64,000 nt of DNA from Bdellovibrionales bacterium Ga0074139 (lineage in GTDB: Bacteria; Bdellovibrionota; Bdellovibrionia; Bdellovibrionales; Bdellovibrionaceae). The notes under the pieces are model-generated. The model did not search any database and was not told the DNA's origin. It worked only from the letters and a program-made list of their open reading frames with translations. The translations under genes and the position numbers were made by a program. Of the stretch, positions 23,367-31,911 are shown piece by piece; within the stretch, counting starts at the first letter, position 1; every line of letters begins with the position of its first letter. The stretch is taken from NCBI GenBank assembly GCA_001464795.1, contig LNEB01000014.1, positions 124,001 through 188,000 of the forward strand, read 5' to 3'.

Positions 23367-24638
23367 ATGCTAAATGCTCAAATTAGAAAAAAAAAGGTGG
23401 TTATCGTTGGGGCTGGTTTTGCTGGTCTTAATGCTGCCAAAAAACTATCCAATGAAGATAACCTATCCGTTATTTTGATAGACCACAAAAATCATCATTT
23501 GTTTCAACCCTTGCTTTATCAAGTTGCTACGGCTGGTTTAGATCCCTCAGATATTGCTGTTCCAATTCGGGGTGAATTCGCTGAAAACTCCAATGTGGTC
23601 GTTCATTTAGCAAAAGTGGAATTCATTGACCTAGAAAAGCAAAAAGTGACTTTATTAAATTCCGCAGATCCAGTGGATTATGATTACTTAATTTTAGCTT
23701 GTGGTGCTCAACATAGTTATTTTGGTAATCACAGTTGGGAACAATGGGCACCGGGTCTGAAAACCTTAGAACAGGCCACTGAAATCAGGCACCGAATTCT
23801 TTCAGCCTTTGAAAAAGCAGAAAATGAAACAGATCCTGAAATGCAAAAACGCTACCTCAACTTTGTCGTTGTTGGTGGAGGACCCACAGGAGTCGAGTTA
23901 GCAGGTGCTATTGCTGAAATAAGTAGAAAAGTATTAGTCAACGATTTCAAAGTCATCAACCCTGCCTTAGCCCAGGTTTATCTTTTTGAAGCAGGACCAA
24001 GACTACTAGCAGACTTCGAACCTAGTTTGTCCGCAAAAGCCAAAAAAGATTTAGAAATTTTAGGGGTCACAGTTTTAGTTAATCAAAAAGTGGAAAACAT
24101 CACGCAACATGGTGTTTTTTATTCTGATCAATTAATATCAAGCGAGTCTATTTTTTGGGCAGCTGGAGTGCAGGCTAGACAAATTCCCACAACTCCAAGC
24201 TTACAGCAAGACAAAGCAGGCAAAGTCTATGTAGAACCCAATTTAACAATTAAAGGTTTTAGTAATGCTTTTGTTGTAGGTGATATGGCTCACGTTGAAA
24301 CCACTGAATCAAAAATTGTACCTGGGGTTGCGCCTGCTGCCATTCAAATGGGTCTGCATGTTGCGAAATCTATTGTAAAAAATAAAAATGAAATATTTCA
24401 CTATTATGACAAAGGTTTAATGGCCACCATCGGAAAAAATAAAGCTGTTATGCAATCACCAGGAAAATTTTTTAAGTTTGATGGTCGTATCGCTTGGTGG
24501 GCCTGGTTGTTAATTCACGTTCTTTATCTAGTCGGGTTTCGAAACAGACTATCTGTTTTATCACAATGGGTTTGGAGTTATTTGTTTTCAAAACATGGCT
24601 CAAGATTGATCACAAATTCAACCTGGGAAAACAATTAA
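23367..24638 (+). CDS. ndh: Type II NADH dehydrogenase (NDH-2) family FAD oxidoreductase
   Basis: A single-subunit, non-proton-pumping NADH:quinone oxidoreductase of the inner membrane face. The FAD-binding GxGxxG is VVIVGAGFAGLNAAKKL near the N-terminus. The NAD site is VVVGGGPTGVELAGAIAE around residue 170. The quinone-site region appears as GVAPAAIQMG. The C-terminal part has an amphipathic/hydrophobic stretch (WWAWLLIHVLYLVGFRNR) that docks these enzymes to the membrane. At 423 aa it has the usual size. The gene stands alone, 101 nt before the PYP cluster. Whether the two are linked is unknown; an AT-only inverted repeat lies between them. Confidence 0.9.
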   Translation: MLNAQIRKKKVVIVGAGFAGLNAAKKLSNEDNLSVILIDHKNHHLFQPLLYQVATAGLDPSDIAVPIRGEFAENSNVVVHLAKVEFIDLEKQKVTLLNSADPVDYDYLILACGAQHSYFGNHSWEQWAPGLKTLEQATEIRHRILSAFEKAENETDPEMQKRYLNFVVVGGGPTGVELAGAIAEISRKVLVNDFKVINPALAQVYLFEAGPRLLADFEPSLSAKAKKDLEILGVTVLVNQKVENITQHGVFYSDQLISSESIFWAAGVQARQIPTTPSLQQDKAGKVYVEPNLTIKGFSNAFVVGDMAHVETTESKIVPGVAPAAIQMGLHVAKSIVKNKNEIFHYYDKGLMATIGKNKAVMQSPGKFFKFDGRIAWWAWLLIHVLYLVGFRNRLSVLSQWVWSYLFSKHGSRLITNSTWENN

Positions 24639-24739: not shown

Positions 24740-26194
24740 ATGTCAGTTAAAGAAAATATTCTTAAAAATTTAACTCCAACTGATTTAGATAAAAAATTTA
24801 AAGAGCTTCTTGATTGTCTGCCACCATTTGAAGAACAAGAACTTTTAAAAGCTAAAAATTGGTTTGATGAAAAAGTTGATTCCGTTACCCAAATTGTAAA
24901 CGACATTGTGATTGAAAATGACGAGCAGGAATTGGTATTTCAATTATCAACGATTTGGTTGCAACTGCGTCTTGAGTGGAATCTTTATAATCTACAAATG
25001 CAATATCAAACGATGACGCTTGGGCAAGCAAAGCCTTGGCTTATGATCAAAGGATCATGTTTAAGTTATTTAGTCGAGTTATTTGAATTCAGTATCGATT
25101 CTTACCGTGTTTTTTGGCTCTCTAGATTAGCCACTGATCCTATCCAAGCCGTGTCGAATCGAATCGAGTTGGTCGATCGAATGCTAAGCATAACTCAAAC
25201 CACAGATAAAGAATTACAAACTGTTACTAATGATATTATCCAGGTTCGGGATTATGTCAGTCGATTGATTACCTCTGAAGATTCCGTCAAGCAGTTTCAC
25301 ACCTATATTGAAGCCTTGCTGGAAAAGACCAGCACTCTTGTGCAATTTACAACTAATGATTTTAAAAATTGTATTGAGTCCAGTTTGATTAAAGGATTTG
25401 CAAAAGAATCTCTTCGTTTCGTACTCAATCATAATATCAATGGTGAAACATTTTTTTTAAGACCCGAAGTTTCCCAAATTCTTTTAGAAATAACCACAAA
25501 GTGGATAGGCAATTTGGTTCAAGTATCACTTGAAAAAAGTGTAGAAGAACGAGTTGCAGTGAATAAGTCACAACACGTTAACATTTCTTGGTCCATTGAA
25601 AAAAAAGAAGGTAAGATTTTTTTTAGTCTTATAGATGACGGGGCTGGAAAAAACCCATTAATTCTTGAAACTGATCAATACAGAAATTTACAGATGGCAG
25701 GATCTGTTTTGAATACCCCTGGTGAAGGTTCAAAATTAGAGATCTCAATGTGTGCCACCCCCATAAGCCTTTATTGCATTTCAAACATTGATGAAAATAA
25801 AAAAATTAAAGTGGCCTTTGAAGCTGATGAAATTTTATCAGTGGAAAGTCATTATAAATCCATTACTCATGCCTTCGGCCATCCCTGTGTGGTTTCTGAT
25901 GCAAATGAAATGTACATACTGGTCGATTTGACTGAAATCTTTCAACAGTCACCTTTAAAAAAATCAACTTTTGTATTTTTAAAAACGAAAGAACCAAAAT
26001 CAGGATTTCCTATTTGTTTGCAGCTTAGCTCTGTCGAAGGTTTTACCCATGCTAGTCTTGCTACTGGTGGGGCCCTTGCGCAAAGTCCTTACTCCCGTGG
26101 ATTTTTTATTTATCGTCAAGAAGTTATAACAGTTCTAGATTCCATTATCATTGTACAAAATCTGAATACACAACGCCAAGAGGCTGCAGCATGA
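24740..26194 (+). CDS. Divergent CheA-like protein with degenerate ATPase and CheW-like end
   Basis: Residues ~245-340 align with the CheA ATPase domain. EERVAVNKSQHVNISWSIEK then FSLIDDGAG matches the CheA EER(I/V)A-GK...EVxDDGxG stretch without gaps, and the GSVLNTPGEGSKLEISM end also fits. However, the N-box reads LVQVSLEKSVEER. Val262 stands where CheA has the Mg-binding Asn of LxRNxxDHGIE, and two residues are deleted. There is no HPt domain with a phospho-acceptor histidine; the first 240 residues are helical and unknown. Residues ~340-484 are strand-rich and could be a CheW-like domain (inference). So it looks like a pseudokinase or scaffold. Its stop overlaps the lyase start by 4 nt (ATGA). 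Confidence 0.68.
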   Translation: MSVKENILKNLTPTDLDKKFKELLDCLPPFEEQELLKAKNWFDEKVDSVTQIVNDIVIENDEQELVFQLSTIWLQLRLEWNLYNLQMQYQTMTLGQAKPWLMIKGSCLSYLVELFEFSIDSYRVFWLSRLATDPIQAVSNRIELVDRMLSITQTTDKELQTVTNDIIQVRDYVSRLITSEDSVKQFHTYIEALLEKTSTLVQFTTNDFKNCIESSLIKGFAKESLRFVLNHNINGETFFLRPEVSQILLEITTKWIGNLVQVSLEKSVEERVAVNKSQHVNISWSIEKKEGKIFFSLIDDGAGKNPLILETDQYRNLQMAGSVLNTPGEGSKLEISMCATPISLYCISNIDENKKIKVAFEADEILSVESHYKSITHAFGHPCVVSDANEMYILVDLTEIFQQSPLKKSTFVFLKTKEPKSGFPICLQLSSVEGFTHASLATGGALAQSPYSRGFFIYRQEVITVLDSIIIVQNLNTQRQEAAA

Positions 26195-27600
26195 AGCCAA
26201 CTTGGAGTGAGCTTATGGCTTGGGGTGAGATAACGACTGAGTACCAATCTGATGTAAATCAAATAATTGCAGTCAGAAGAAGTTATGAAAATTTGCAAAC
26301 CATCATGAAAGATGGAAAGCAATCCATATACGGTTTGCATACAGGCTATGGGTCCAATGTAACCGATGCAGTATCTAGCCAAGACTGGAAAGATCACCAG
26401 CTTCATCTGCTCAATTACTTAAATGTGGGTCAGGGTCCCCTGTTTCAAGAAAGAGTTGTCAGACGAGCTCTGCGACTTCAAGCCTATAAAGTTGGATTGG
26501 GATATTCAGGTGTTCATCCAGAAACCTTTGATCTTTTGGTTCAACTTTCGAATTCAAAAAAACTACCTGAAGTTCCTATTTGGGGTTCACTCGGCGCTAG
26601 TGGTGACTTAATTCCCATGGCTCATGCAGTAGCTCCGTTGTTTCACAACCGAGACCCAAAAAGTCCAAGAGATGTGATTGCACTGGTCAATACCAATGCC
26701 ATGATGGCAAGTTACGCCATTGAAATCGCAGAGACCACAAAGCAACTTTTAGCTTCAACCCATAAAATCACTGGACTTGTGGGATATGCATTAGGGCTGA
26801 CTTCTGAAAATCAATCTCCTTGGAGCCTCAAAACACAAAATGAGCTTGAATGGGCTGATCTTTCAGCACAAAAAATCATGAACTTCAAAGAAGATTTCAT
26901 TCATCAACACAATTTTCGATTTTCAGAGAAAAGAAGAAATCTGATACCAACTCAAGAAAAATACTCAATTAGATGTGCACCGCAGATTTTAGGAAATGCT
27001 GAGGAAAATTTAAATTTTGCAGTTTCTAAAATTCTTCGTGAAGCCCTTAGTGTGGCTGACAATCCTTTAATACCACAAAATTCCAATGATCAAGTCTGTC
27101 ATGGAGGTTTGTTTTATACGTCCTATCTCGCAACAGCTTCAGACTTGATGAATGATATCATCTTTCGTTGTTGTGAAATCTTAGACCGACAGATTTTAAT
27201 ACTTATGGATTCCAATTTGAGCCATGGGTTACCAGTGAACCTCGAGATCTCAAAGTTTGACCACTGTAAAGGTTTACATCAACTTATTTCTAGTCTTTTA
27301 CAAATATTAAAATCTAAGTCCACACCTAGTCGCAATTTAAGTTTTTCCTGCGAAGGTAATAATCAAGATGTTGTCCCATGCTCAATGAATGCTCTGCATT
27401 TAGTGAGCGAAAACTTAGTTGTTGCTCGAAAAATCATTGAAACCTCAGATTTTACCGCTCAGCGGGCCTGCTACATAGCCTCTGAGCAAATGGTGCCAAG
27501 TGACCTCACTTTACAAAAATTTAAATCTAAATTTCAAACTGAGATGGTCTCGGTTGAAGACATAAACAATAAAAAAGGAGAAACCTATGAGTTTCGTTGA
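26191..27600 (+). CDS. tal: Aromatic amino-acid ammonia lyase, predicted tyrosine ammonia lyase for PYP chromophore
   Basis: Member of the MIO-dependent lyase family (HAL/PAL/TAL). The self-cyclising Ala-Ser-Gly is at residues 136-138 in GSLGASGDLIPMAH. The catalytic tyrosine is in IYGLHTGYGSNV (Y47). The substrate-selectivity pair, aligned without gaps from the MIO site, is Tyr76-Leu77. Rhodobacter TAL has His-Leu there, PAL has Phe-Leu and histidine lyase has Ser-His. The Leu fits a phenyl ring rather than imidazole. Together with PYP and a CoA ligase, this points to deamination of tyrosine to p-coumarate. At 469 aa it is shorter than most HALs (~510). It overlaps the pyp gene by 14 nt. Confidence 0.88.
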   Translation: MKPTWSELMAWGEITTEYQSDVNQIIAVRRSYENLQTIMKDGKQSIYGLHTGYGSNVTDAVSSQDWKDHQLHLLNYLNVGQGPLFQERVVRRALRLQAYKVGLGYSGVHPETFDLLVQLSNSKKLPEVPIWGSLGASGDLIPMAHAVAPLFHNRDPKSPRDVIALVNTNAMMASYAIEIAETTKQLLASTHKITGLVGYALGLTSENQSPWSLKTQNELEWADLSAQKIMNFKEDFIHQHNFRFSEKRRNLIPTQEKYSIRCAPQILGNAEENLNFAVSKILREALSVADNPLIPQNSNDQVCHGGLFYTSYLATASDLMNDIIFRCCEILDRQILILMDSNLSHGLPVNLEISKFDHCKGLHQLISSLLQILKSKSTPSRNLSFSCEGNNQDVVPCSMNALHLVSENLVVARKIIETSDFTAQRACYIASEQMVPSDLTLQKFKSKFQTEMVSVEDINNKKGETYEFR

Positions 27601-27961
27601 TCCAAGTGTATTAACAAAGTTAGCACAACTCACTCGTGAGGATGCAGATAAGGCACCATTCGGAGTCGTTAAAGTTGATTCAACTGGGAAAATTTTAATG
27701 TACAATCAGTACGAATCACAAATGGCTGGAGTCGCTGCAAGTGCAGCAGAGGGAAAAAATTTCTTCACTGAAATTGCACCTTGCACGAACAATCGCTTAT
27801 TCTTCGGCAAATTTCAACAAGGCCTACAAAACGGTGAGCTTGATTCTGAATTTGGCTATACTTTCACTTATAAAATGAAACCAACTAACGTCACAATTCG
27901 CCTGATGCACGATAAGTCATCAAAAACGAACTGGGTATTTGTTCAGAAAAAAGCAGCTTAA
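27587..27961 (+). CDS. pyp: Photoactive yellow protein (PYP), blue-light photoreceptor
   Basis: A 124-residue PAS-fold protein that binds p-coumarate through a thioester and is a blue-light sensor in other bacteria. Cys66 in EIAPCTNN matches the chromophore-binding Cys69 of Halorhodospira PYP. Tyr39 and Glu43 (LMYNQYESQMAG) match the hydrogen-bonding Tyr42 and Glu46. Tyr91, Phe93, Tyr95 and Met97 (YTFTYKM) match Tyr94, Phe96, Tyr98 and Met100. KNFF, FYGKF-like FFGKF and the WVFV end are also kept. The Thr50 and Arg52 positions are Ala47 and Val49 here. The ATG lies inside the end of the lyase gene behind a strong AAGGAG (27575-27580). Confidence 0.95.
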   Translation: MSFVDPSVLTKLAQLTREDADKAPFGVVKVDSTGKILMYNQYESQMAGVAASAAEGKNFFTEIAPCTNNRLFFGKFQQGLQNGELDSEFGYTFTYKMKPTNVTIRLMHDKSSKTNWVFVQKKAA

Positions 27962-27974
27962 ACTAGGAGGTTTT

Positions 27975-28349
27975 ATGGAATTTGATCAAACCGAACTTTT
28001 GATGGCTTTAAAAAGCCTCGAGTCTCAGCTTGTTTCTTTGTATGCAGAAAAACAAGAACATGGAGACCCCTCTGCACTTCATGAATCGATTCGAAATCTT
28101 GAGGCTCAACTTTGTGATATGTATGAAGAGCGTAGTCATTGGATTATGTCTCCTGCATCTGCACAAGCAGGCTTAGAAAGCTTAGAAGCTCAAGTCATTT
28201 CATTGACTGATGAAAAAATGGAGCACCAAAAAACAATTGAACGTTATCAACAGGAAATCCAAGAACTCAGACTCAAAGCGAAAGCTTTAGGTGCAGCTGT
28301 TTTTGAAGCTTCTATGTTTGGTAACGATCAATTAAAAAAAGTAGGATAA
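27975..28349 (+). CDS. Small three-repeat coiled-coil protein of the PYP cluster
   Basis: I chose the ATG at 27975, 4 nt after a perfect TAGGAGG, over the longer frame that starts inside pyp. The 124-residue product contains three related units: SLESQLVSLYAEKQEH (14-29), NLEAQLCDMYEERSHW (41-56) and SLEAQVISLTDEKMEH (69-84). They are spaced 27 and 28 residues apart. A continuous coiled coil follows (QKTIERYQQEIQELRLKAKAL), then a short tail. It has no signal peptide or known catalytic motif. The position between pyp and the ligase gene suggests a partner or adaptor of PYP. I know no named family. Confidence 0.72.
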   Translation: MEFDQTELLMALKSLESQLVSLYAEKQEHGDPSALHESIRNLEAQLCDMYEERSHWIMSPASAQAGLESLEAQVISLTDEKMEHQKTIERYQQEIQELRLKAKALGAAVFEASMFGNDQLKKVG

Positions 28350-28352
28350 ATC

Positions 28353-29606
28353 ATGGAACCCTTTGAGCAATTAAAAAAAATAATGGCAGATAAGCTTAAA
28401 TCACCAACTGTTTTTTTTAGTGCCAAAGATAATGACGTGCTTTCGGGTCTTGCTTTGTGGCGCAGGGCCCATGATCGTCGCCATGAATTACGTGATGAAG
28501 GTTATAAAAAAGGAGATCTCTATTTTTGTGAAAAGCCTAATGGGTTTGAGTTTCTTGTCGATTTAGTGGCCTGTATTGTTGGACAGTATCGATTTTTTCC
28601 ATGCCATTCATTGACACCGGAAGAGAAACAAAAATCCATTAAAATGGCAGAAACAAATCCAGAGATCTCTGTATTTTTAGCAACTGGTGGAACAATTAGT
28701 CGAAAGATTGTAGGACTTTCTGAAACTGTGCTGATTCACCAAATGGAAGTTCATTCCAAGATTTTAAATCTCAAGCCTGAGGAACCCAGGCTTTGTACTT
28801 TGCCCTGGACACATAGCTTTGGCTTTGTTCTTGATTTACTCTTAGGAATTTATAATCAGCAAACTCTTATTATTTCTCGAAATTCCAGTGCTCAAGAAAT
28901 ATTGAAGTGTGTTGAAAATTATCAAATACAACATCTCGCCTGTGTACCCAGAGTTTTAGAAGCTTTAAGACAAAGAAACCAAAATACAGACCTATCACAA
29001 GTTCAGGTTCACTTCGGCGGTGCCTACCTATCTAAAGATACCTTAGATTGGGGAAAAACTGCTTTAAAAGAAATCATTGAAGGATATGGCTTAACAGAGG
29101 CAGGTCCAGGAGTACTTATGGATGGAAGACCCGCAGGTTGTGAAGTCCTGTTAAGGCCTTCTAAGTTCAATCAATTACAAGAGCTTTGGGTAAAGACTCA
29201 TTATCCATGTTTTTGGAATAATAAAATAACCTGTGAAGAAGGATTTTTTAATACTTCCGATTTAGCCGTCCAAATTAACGACAAAATTCTGATAAAAGGT
29301 CGCGATTCTGATTTAATCAAAACAACAAATGGACAATGGATCAGTCGTTTTGATTTGAACAATGAAATCAAAACTGCTTTGGGATCCAATTACGTCGACT
29401 ATGATCCAGTGAAACAAATAGTAAAGACAGTTGTTTCGAATCAAAATAGTTATACACATATAGATTCACAAAAAAAAATTAAAAAAATACTCGGCTTTGA
29501 AATTCATATCGAAATCTTTCAAGCCGATAATGAGTTCTGGAAGTCAGTTTCTGAAAGTCGCAAGAAAAGCATTGAAGATCACCTAAAGGATCTTAAAGTT
29601 GCTTAG
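28353..29606 (+). CDS. pcl: AMP-forming acyl-CoA ligase, predicted p-coumarate:CoA ligase
   Basis: An adenylate-forming enzyme of the ANL family, predicted to convert p-coumarate to p-coumaroyl-CoA for loading onto PYP. Visible motifs are a P-loop-like FLATGGTISRKIVG (the usual TSGTTGxPK, altered), FGGAYLSKDT, the A5 motif EGYGLTEAGPG, and the hinge region FFNTSDLAVQIN...LIKGRDSDLIKTTNG. At 417 aa it is much shorter than typical 4-coumarate ligases (~540), with a reduced N-terminal domain. Short PYP-associated ligases are known from purple bacteria. It lies 3 nt after the repeat-protein gene. Substrate assignment rests on context. Confidence 0.85.
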   Translation: MEPFEQLKKIMADKLKSPTVFFSAKDNDVLSGLALWRRAHDRRHELRDEGYKKGDLYFCEKPNGFEFLVDLVACIVGQYRFFPCHSLTPEEKQKSIKMAETNPEISVFLATGGTISRKIVGLSETVLIHQMEVHSKILNLKPEEPRLCTLPWTHSFGFVLDLLLGIYNQQTLIISRNSSAQEILKCVENYQIQHLACVPRVLEALRQRNQNTDLSQVQVHFGGAYLSKDTLDWGKTALKEIIEGYGLTEAGPGVLMDGRPAGCEVLLRPSKFNQLQELWVKTHYPCFWNNKITCEEGFFNTSDLAVQINDKILIKGRDSDLIKTTNGQWISRFDLNNEIKTALGSNYVDYDPVKQIVKTVVSNQNSYTHIDSQKKIKKILGFEIHIEIFQADNEFWKSVSESRKKSIEDHLKDLKVA

Positions 29607-29663
29607 ATAAATTTAATACTAGGCTGGACTGTACTAATTTATAGCTAATGTCGATAATAGATT

Positions 29664-31580
29664 ATGCAGTTTTGGACCGTAGCAAAAATCATAGCTTTAT
29701 CCATAAGCCTTTATTTTTTATGGCGTGCTTTAAAAAAAGTTAAAGCCCAAAAAGATGATATTTCTGAAATAATGAAACTTTCAGAAAACCTACAAATGAT
29801 GACTAATATTGGTGGCTGGCAAGTCGACATTGAAACACAAAAATCGATTTGGACCACTCAAACTTATAAAATTCATGAAATTCCTGAAGGAACACCCACT
29901 GGTGTTGCAATGGGAATAGAATTCTACACTGGAGACGACAAAAAAAGAATTGATCAAGCGGTACATAATTGTATTTTAGGCATTCCATTCAGAGAAGTTC
30001 TTAAATTTAGATCTGCAAAAGGAACTAATAAATGGGTCGAGTGTGCTGGAGAGCCTGTTTATAATAATGAAAACAAATTGTACAAATTGCGCGGCACCAT
30101 TCAAGATGTAACAGAGTCTGTTAATTTAAAAAATCAATTATCTTTAATTCTTAATCACTCACCGGCTGCTGTATATGAATGCTTGAGTAATAAAAATTGG
30201 ACGATGAAATATATTAGTTCATTTATTGAAAAATTGAGTGGCTATCCTTCGACTGATTTTATAAATGACCAGGTTCGATCTTATGCCTCAATTATACATC
30301 CAGAGGATTTAAAATTTGTCTCAAATACAATTTCAAAATCCATAGAATCATTAATAGACTTTGATATTAACTACAGAATCATTACAAAAAGCGGTGAGAT
30401 CAAACAGGTTTGGGAAAGAGGCTCCTTTGAATCCAGCAGTGGAAATCTGATAGGTATTATTTTTGATCAAACCGAGCAAAAAAGTGTCGAACAGATGCTT
30501 ACTGAATCACAAAAAGTCGCAAAATTAGGGAACTGGTCATTTGATCTCAAGACTCAAGAAATAAAATGGTCTCAGCAAATGTATCAACTTTTTCCTGAAA
30601 ATCCTGAACTGGGTCCTCCTTCATTTGAAAAACATAAATCAACTATTCATCCTGATGATCAAGAAAGATGGAGCTCTACTGTTAACGAATGTATTCAAAA
30701 TGGAACTCCTTATAAATTTCGATTCCGTGTTGTTCATCCTGACAAAACTGTTTGGCTAGAAGCCATAGGTAAAGCGACAAAGGATCCGAATGGAAATATC
30801 ATCGCCTTAAATGGAACAGGTCAAGATGTCACTGAAACAGTACAAATTGAGGAATCATTAAACATTCAAAGACTTAAAAATATTCAAACGGCGAAGTTAG
30901 CATCCCTGGGTGAAATGTCAGCTGGAGTTGCTCACGAAATAAATAACCCCCTTGCTATTGTATCTGGAAATCTACAAATTTTACTTTCAAGTGCCACAGA
31001 CAATGAAAAATTAAATAAAAAATTAGAAGTCATGCTTAAAGCCACTGAAAGAATAGCAAAAATAGTTCATGGTCTTAAGAAGTTTGCACGCATGAGTGAT
31101 CAAAATGAAAGAAAACCACAGCTTTTATATCAAATTGTCCAAGAAACATTATACATTTTAGAAATCAAAGCGAAAATGAACCACACACAGTTGACTATGG
31201 AAAACACAAGCCAGTCACTTGTCTTTTGTAATCAACTTGAAATTGAACAAGTTATAATTAATTTAGTAACTAATAGTTTAGATGCCATTAAAAATTTAAA
31301 TGAGAAATGGATTATCATCAGAATCTTTGATCAAGGTCATCAAGTCATATTACAAGTGGAAGACTCTGGATTGGGAATTAGTGCGAGTATTGAGAGTAAG
31401 TTGTTTGATCCATTCTTTACCACAAAACCTGTCGGCGAAGGCACTGGCTTAGGCCTTTCGATCACTAAGGGAATTTTAGATGATCACAAGGCAGAAATAA
31501 GTCTTAATAAATCCTCTGCTAATACTTGTTTCGAAATTCGCTTTCCTGTCCATATCGACGGCCTGAAAAATGCCATTTAA
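29664..31580 (+). CDS. Membrane-anchored histidine kinase with three PAS domains
   Basis: Domain order: a short N-terminal hydrophobic helix (VAKIIALSISLYFLW), three PAS/PAC units (about residues 40-152, 155-272, 275-395), HisKA with the phospho-acceptor His424 in GEMSAGVAHEINNPL, and an HATPase_c domain. The ATPase has the N-box IINLVTNSLDAI, a G1 box EDSGLGIS (about 567) and the FFTTKPVGEGTGLGLSITKG lid. PAS 1 and 3 have the IGGW/LGNW entry typical of the PAS_3 fold. No haem, flavin or bilin site is evident, so a light signal would have to come from PYP. It follows the ligase gene by 57 nt and overlaps the receiver gene by 11 nt. Confidence 0.9.
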   Translation: MQFWTVAKIIALSISLYFLWRALKKVKAQKDDISEIMKLSENLQMMTNIGGWQVDIETQKSIWTTQTYKIHEIPEGTPTGVAMGIEFYTGDDKKRIDQAVHNCILGIPFREVLKFRSAKGTNKWVECAGEPVYNNENKLYKLRGTIQDVTESVNLKNQLSLILNHSPAAVYECLSNKNWTMKYISSFIEKLSGYPSTDFINDQVRSYASIIHPEDLKFVSNTISKSIESLIDFDINYRIITKSGEIKQVWERGSFESSSGNLIGIIFDQTEQKSVEQMLTESQKVAKLGNWSFDLKTQEIKWSQQMYQLFPENPELGPPSFEKHKSTIHPDDQERWSSTVNECIQNGTPYKFRFRVVHPDKTVWLEAIGKATKDPNGNIIALNGTGQDVTETVQIEESLNIQRLKNIQTAKLASLGEMSAGVAHEINNPLAIVSGNLQILLSSATDNEKLNKKLEVMLKATERIAKIVHGLKKFARMSDQNERKPQLLYQIVQETLYILEIKAKMNHTQLTMENTSQSLVFCNQLEIEQVIINLVTNSLDAIKNLNEKWIIIRIFDQGHQVILQVEDSGLGISASIESKLFDPFFTTKPVGEGTGLGLSITKGILDDHKAEISLNKSSANTCFEIRFPVHIDGLKNAI

Positions 31581-31911
31581 AATTTATTACCTTGATGACG
31601 AACCCGAATTATTAGAATTATTTGTCGATTGTTTCTCGGCTCCCGATCGCATGATTAAAATATTTACGGATCATTCAGCTGCAATAGCAGCCATACAAGA
31701 ACTTTCACCAGACTTACTCATTTTAGACTACCGATTACCTAATACGACAGGTGATCATGTGGCCATGTCTGTGAATGCAGAAATTGCTAAAATTTTGATC
31801 ACTGGAGATTTAGAAGTCGTCCCAAAAGCTCATTTTTTGAAGATTTTTAGAAAGCCCTATAATTTAAATGAGCTTCAAGATTTTATTAAAATACGTCAAA
31901 AAAATTGCTGA
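31570..31911 (+). CDS. Stand-alone receiver-domain response regulator
   Basis: A single CheY-like receiver domain of 113 aa with no output domain. The acidic pair is Asp9-Asp10 (YYLDDEP), the phospho-acceptor is Asp53 (LLILDYRLP), the Thr is in LITGD and the Lys is in FRKPYN. The start codon lies inside the 3' end of the kinase gene (11-nt overlap), so it is the cognate partner. Output must pass through protein-protein contact, as with CheY or a phosphorelay. Its stop overlaps the convergent Omp85 gene by 16 nt, closing the PYP cluster. Confidence 0.9.
   Translation: MPFKIYYLDDEPELLELFVDCFSAPDRMIKIFTDHSAAIAAIQELSPDLLILDYRLPNTTGDHVAMSVNAEIAKILITGDLEVVPKAHFLKIFRKPYNLNELQDFIKIRQKNC

Follow-up and report, generated by a model that had tools for sequence, protein, structure and literature searches.

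Which partners relay the signal of a photoactive yellow protein (PYP) whose gene lies among chromophore-synthesis genes, a CheA-like gene, a coiled-coil-like gene and a kinase-receiver pair? The main text of a 2025 survey names the signal chain after PYP as an important knowledge gap (PMC12826048). The locus that raises this question lies in a Bdellovibrionota genome whose nearest named kin are the Pseudobdellovibrionaceae, within a stretch of 64,000 nucleotides that was analysed as a whole (the window). Relatives were taken from 369 Bdellovibrionota genomes and from 23 PYP loci on GTDB contigs, which span Bdellovibrionota, Gemmatimonadota, Planctomycetota, Myxococcota, Pseudomonadota and Spirochaetota.

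Gene content and chromophore genes of the locus

The + strand carries all seven ORFs of the locus, tightly packed. ORF coordinates and family searches bear out the near-gapless run of seven genes on one strand that the sequence-only reading had described, at the same positions. From the CheA-like gene to the receiver gene, the successive junctions are a 4-bp overlap, a 14-bp overlap, gaps of 13, 3 and 57 bp, and an 11-bp overlap. Promoter and terminator scans of the locus returned no more sites than shuffled sequence. Some 100 bp separate the CheA-like gene from the end of a type II NADH dehydrogenase-like gene (23367-24638, same strand) before it. An empty-site comparison with same-genus genomes recovered neither of the flanking genes (NDH-2, Omp85) at the thresholds applied.

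The PYP (27587-27961, + strand) matches TIGR02373 (E 1e-33) and PYP entries of the PDB (E 3e-25). In an alignment, its Tyr39, Glu43 and Cys66 correspond to Tyr42, Glu46 and Cys69 of Halorhodospira halophila PYP. The TIGR02373 score of 115.9 bits lies under the model cut-off of 143.05, and the window protein is thus a divergent PYP. This low score weakens the claim of an equivalog, not that of PYP homology, and PYPs published for the same branch are equally diverse. The gene overlapping pyp on its upstream side (26191-27600, + strand; PF00221, E 1e-70) encodes an aromatic ammonia-lyase of the MIO type that keeps the ASG MIO triad, the catalytic Tyr, YSIRC and NNQD in the alignment. Its selectivity pair is Tyr-Leu, as in all aligned pyp-linked lyases of Bdellovibrionota; the His-Leu pair of the R. 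sphaeroides tyrosine ammonia-lyase (TAL) is absent from it and present in spirochaete and Gemmatimonadota lyases. We infer tyrosine as substrate, and the enzyme is a probable TAL. The AMP-binding enzyme (28353-29606, + strand; PF00501, E 1e-19), which is conserved at most pyp loci, is probably a p-coumarate-CoA ligase.

A chromophore-complete pyp locus with added signalling genes in a Bdellovibrionota genome, as proposed before, is therefore supported. Like the published three-gene operon pyp-pCL-TAL of H. halophila (PMC12826048), the window pairs PYP with its own TAL and p-coumarate-CoA ligase genes; unlike that operon, it also holds the coiled-coil-like protein (hereafter coil) and the QM/pseudo-CheA protein described below. 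The assertion that known clusters contain tal, pyp and pcl only was too narrow, since GGDEF/EAL and kinase genes occur in pyp operons according to the main text of the 2025 survey (PMC12826048).

The CheA-like protein and its N-terminal domain

The first gene of the locus (24740-26194, + strand) encodes a 484-aa protein without a Pfam match. Its descent from CheA is deduced from an AlphaFold model (pLDDT 85, 22-row alignment) and a fold search. Residues 146-472 of the predicted model match the CheA P3-P4-P5 (CheW-like) region with Z of 20-22; for the last part of the model the match is to CheA P5 (Z 17, rmsd 2.1). The predicted fold and domain order are thus the same as in CheA (PDB 1b3q, 3ja6 and 6s1k), but no match to an Hpt domain with the phospho-accepting His was found in the protein, and another domain, which we call QM, occupies the N-terminus instead. 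The N-box Asn, the F and G2 boxes and the ATP lid are likewise missing, a loss seen in all nine aligned homologues; four true CheAs encoded at related loci retain them. The window protein does have the DDGxG G1 box. We predict a CheA-derived pseudokinase (pseudo-CheA) from which kinase action would not be expected by known chemistry. The earlier description as CheA-like holds for the predicted P3-P4-P5 fold but needs the qualification that this is a putative pseudokinase with neither Hpt nor ATP lid. A plasmid search for pseudo-CheA found none.

The QM domain (24740-25186, + strand) is helical, with invariant W80 and N84 and an NLQMQYQ segment in the alignment. Proteins consisting of QM only have no Pfam match, and a PDB sequence search with QM gave weak, non-significant matches only, to the N-terminal domains of RseA and of an AlgU regulator (E 0.16-0.37). 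The VIA-align fold search returned no entry for the QM part, and as it covered mainly residues 200-472 this is no proof of a new fold. QM is probably a new PYP-linked helical domain. In a profile search it turned up on its own, as the N-terminal part of pseudo-CheA or the C-terminal part of CheA, and in a single frame with PYP (locus L019).

Coil and QM around PYP genes

The coil gene (27975-28349, + strand) falls into no described family, and its start is most likely the ATG at 27975 rather than that of the longer TTG ORF at 27939. The motif positions define three repeats (LESQLVSLYAE, LEAQLCDMYEE and LEAQVISLTDE, the third one degenerate), a pattern that suggests a coiled coil, and the product is a candidate PYP partner. 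The motif [LIVM]xxQLxx[LMFV]Yx[EDL] was defined on the first loci and held in the Spirochaetota and Myxococcota loci retrieved afterwards. It is present in 31 of 36 pyp loci, with 61 occurrences at 1.5 kb or less from PYP genes (106 kb) versus 2 in 515 kb elsewhere, both of these in a single L022 coil gene that lies some 5 kb away from PYP. Neither the motif nor QM was found at control PYP loci on Alpha- and Betaproteobacteria plasmids, or at the lower-scoring PYPs of Myxococcota. In Myxococcota, the top-scoring PYPs carry a fused MerR-type HTH and have a coil gene adjoining and no QM. In L120-L124 of this phylum the HTH is N-terminal and the adjacent QLxxLYxE coil gene is small; these HTH-PYP proteins are probable light-dependent transcription regulators. 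The spirochaete coil and QM proteins of L108, L116, L117 and L118 have in common, by eye, a short C-terminal tail of the IxxxGxKKIxVRK type.

QM profile matches are found at nearly every pyp locus. The domain is adjacent to or fused with PYP in six phyla, a count that is biased because the QM seeds were taken from pyp loci. Within the 369 Bdellovibrionota genomes, PYP is present in 14 and a close PYP in 11; QM was detected in every one of these 11 and in a single further genome, 12 in all. The chance of this overlap is about 1e-17, a value that overstates independence given the origin of the seeds. In the twelfth QM genome (G097), a pseudo-CheA gene at the end of a contig has TAL, ligase, CheA and MCP genes as neighbours. 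No QM copy away from pyp was found in nine genomes reached from the pyp loci of other phyla. QM is rare, as indicated by its presence in 1 of 300 Burkholderiales and 1 of 237 Myxococcota genomes, each being the seed itself. Spirochaetota have it in 13 of 296 genomes; among the 10 that are not seeds, six have PYP within about 1 kb, two have QM on truncated contigs and two have no PYP nearby. QM genes without PYP in the examined stretch were seen in the spirochaete loci L112 and L117 and in an extra copy in G097 (L101). In a PYP tree, most coil- or QM-linked PYPs form a group of 30 rows (support 89/85) that leaves out the H. halophila type, with many forks unresolved on this short alignment. The window PYP differs from H. 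halophila PYP in belonging to the other branch and in its CTNN motif.

PYP genes are repeatedly accompanied by TAL, ligase, coil and one domain of the CheA-like protein. The same genes surround PYP at 22 other loci, which makes their grouping more than chance. The sequence-only reading had proposed a module of seven genes. Five of them (CheA-like, lyase, PYP, coil and ligase) do recur together in relatives, so that for these five the possibility of their never occurring together falls away; the kinase-receiver pair does not follow them. Two arrangements can be distinguished. The type I arrangement (window, L015-L018) comprises pseudo-CheA, TAL, ligase, coil and PYP, whose order and orientation differ from locus to locus. 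In three of these loci (L015 8756-9952, L016 8722-9984, L018 7736-9043), the gene immediately upstream of PYP encodes a conserved protein of about 400 aa with a signal-like N-terminus and no Pfam match; it is absent from the window. Type II loci (L026, L028, L029, L031, L034 and L035) encode a catalytic CheA (Hpt and HATPase) that ends in QM, and their PYP has an N-terminal extension bearing the coil motif. A CheX gene and a single-domain receiver gene are located downstream in L026 and L031, and about 6 kb off in L034. MCP or CheA genes adjoin the module at all type II loci, and MCP genes adjoin it in L015, L021, L100, L108 and L111. Two type II genomes, G176 and G178 (90 and 92% complete), have no detected MCP; their loci, L034 and L026 respectively, combine the catalytic CheA-QM with the coil-PYP fusion. 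Natural fusions comprise coil-PYP (L026 and its kin), PYP-QM (L019), QM-coil (L116) and CheA-QM. In L116 the single QM-coil protein adjoins PYP.

Possible routes of PYP signalling

We consider it rather probable that PYP signals via coil and QM into the chemotaxis machinery, here through pseudo-CheA as an adaptor, by a mechanism that we infer as follows. Judging from their families, the lyase and the CoA ligase would make p-coumaroyl-CoA from tyrosine, to be loaded onto Cys66 of the blue-light sensor PYP, which light would then alter. The coil, as a direct PYP partner or as a scaffold, may pass the signal to QM, as strict gene linkage and the natural fusions suggest. QM would serve pseudo-CheA as input domain, and pseudo-CheA, by its predicted structure, still has a dimerisation, an ATPase-fold and a CheW-like domain. 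Since phosphotransfer features are missing from its sequence, pseudo-CheA most likely docks into a chemoreceptor array or pairs with a separate true CheA, and light would thereby shift kinase output. No MCP or true CheA gene was found beside the cluster in the window. The host genome encodes five MCPs and a separate CheA/CheW set away from the pyp locus, so that pseudo-CheA is probably an array adaptor and light-dependent motility is a plausible and likely outcome. The predation choice suggested earlier is unsupported. This genome also encodes, near an MCP, a 497-aa protein with three tandem CheW domains (G000:C10:8208-9623).

The gene order of the window could also mean that PYP signals via the adjacent kinase and receiver, with pseudo-CheA and coil as accessory proteins. 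The histidine kinase (29664-31580, + strand) was assigned by family search an N-terminal hydrophobic helix, three PAS domains, HisKA and HATPase; the single-domain receiver (31570-31911, + strand; PF00072, E 3e-8), whose gene overlaps the kinase gene by 11 bp, is its likely partner. The pair lies on the same strand, 57 bp past the ligase gene, with no terminator-like site in between, and some published pyp operons hold HisKA/HATPase genes. However, these kinase genes are mostly upstream of pyp in the operons that the survey's main text describes (PMC12826048), and the pair adjoins pyp at no other locus examined, whereas coil and QM are nearly always near. The receivers near some type II pyp loci are distinct from the window receiver and accompanied by a CheX gene. 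Signalling through this pair is therefore unlikely, its membership of the module as first proposed is unsupported, and the two genes are probably neighbours, either independent or added late. That the CheA-like protein is itself an active kinase under PYP control is very improbable: it has a CheA fold with the G1 box, and the catalytic CheA of type II loci shares its QM domain, but the absence of Hpt and the loss of N-box Asn, F/G2 boxes and lid throughout the homologues speak against it.

QM and coil could instead aid holo-PYP assembly or chromophore loading, as a chaperone or a TAL-ligase scaffold, with no role in signalling. In many loci they are indeed tied to TAL and ligase as closely as to PYP. 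Yet the Myxococcota coil loci, L113 and L116 have coil or QM with PYP and no TAL or ligase in the examined stretch, and the fusion of QM to both CheA and pseudo-CheA points to signalling, which leaves the assembly role quite unlikely. Least probable of all is that these genes were co-transferred horizontally without any functional tie. PYP has a scattered distribution in the phylum (14 of 369 genomes) and its transfer is documented (main text of PMC9664959), but coil and QM stay linked despite varied gene order, and several kinds of fusion join them to PYP or to each other.

Coil and QM add two apparently undescribed families of putative PYP partners to what is known of PYP signalling. In surveys of 789 and 984 PYP homologues, the neighbours described include GGDEF/EAL, histidine kinase and MCP genes, and no coiled-coil partner or CheA-derived neighbour was found in their main texts, to which this comparison is confined (PMC9664959, PMC12826048). 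Clade B PYPs adjoin a chemoreceptor without sensory domain (Xing et al. 2022, PMC9664959). They resemble the loci described here in linking a single-domain PYP to chemotaxis, MCPs adjoining coil-PYP in L108 and L111, but differ in that coil, QM or a CheA-derived protein do not figure in the main text and in that the window cluster is without MCP. Coupling of PYP to chemotaxis, as proposed for the window, has precedents in published MCP-PYP fusions (main text of PMC12826048) and in the binding of Ppr to CheW (PMC2993699); unlike these, coupling in the window would use separate coil and QM proteins towards CheA or pseudo-CheA.

More broadly, PYP, coil and QM may constitute an unrecognised light unit, in which QM reads PYP and plugs into CheA or pseudo-CheA and which would replace MCPs altogether in the type II genomes where none was detected; we rate the chances of this wider proposal as even. 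As no MCP was detected in G176 and G178, PYP may take the receptor's place there, and these genomes possibly have a receptor-free, light-driven CheA pathway. If true, this would be direct optical control of a CheA pathway, and a natural light-input domain for CheA would serve optogenetics. Output appears to differ by lineage, since many Myxococcota coil-PYP loci have HTH-PYP fusions and no QM.

The same partners lie beside or are fused to PYP-type sensors in six phyla, which suggests how such sensors relay their signal and makes the two conserved families concrete candidates for binding. Both show linkage to PYP and fusion with it or with one another, and for that reason coil and QM stand out as the leading candidates for a next step. 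Laboratory tests of the idea are feasible in a named strain, Sphaerotilus natans ATCC 13338 (L025), which has coil, PYP, QM, pseudo-CheA and an AMP-binding ligase. In the pyp clusters of L024, L025 and L027 (Sphaerotilus and a Gemmatimonadaceae MAG), an HDOD gene adjoins QM or is located between QM and pseudo-CheA.
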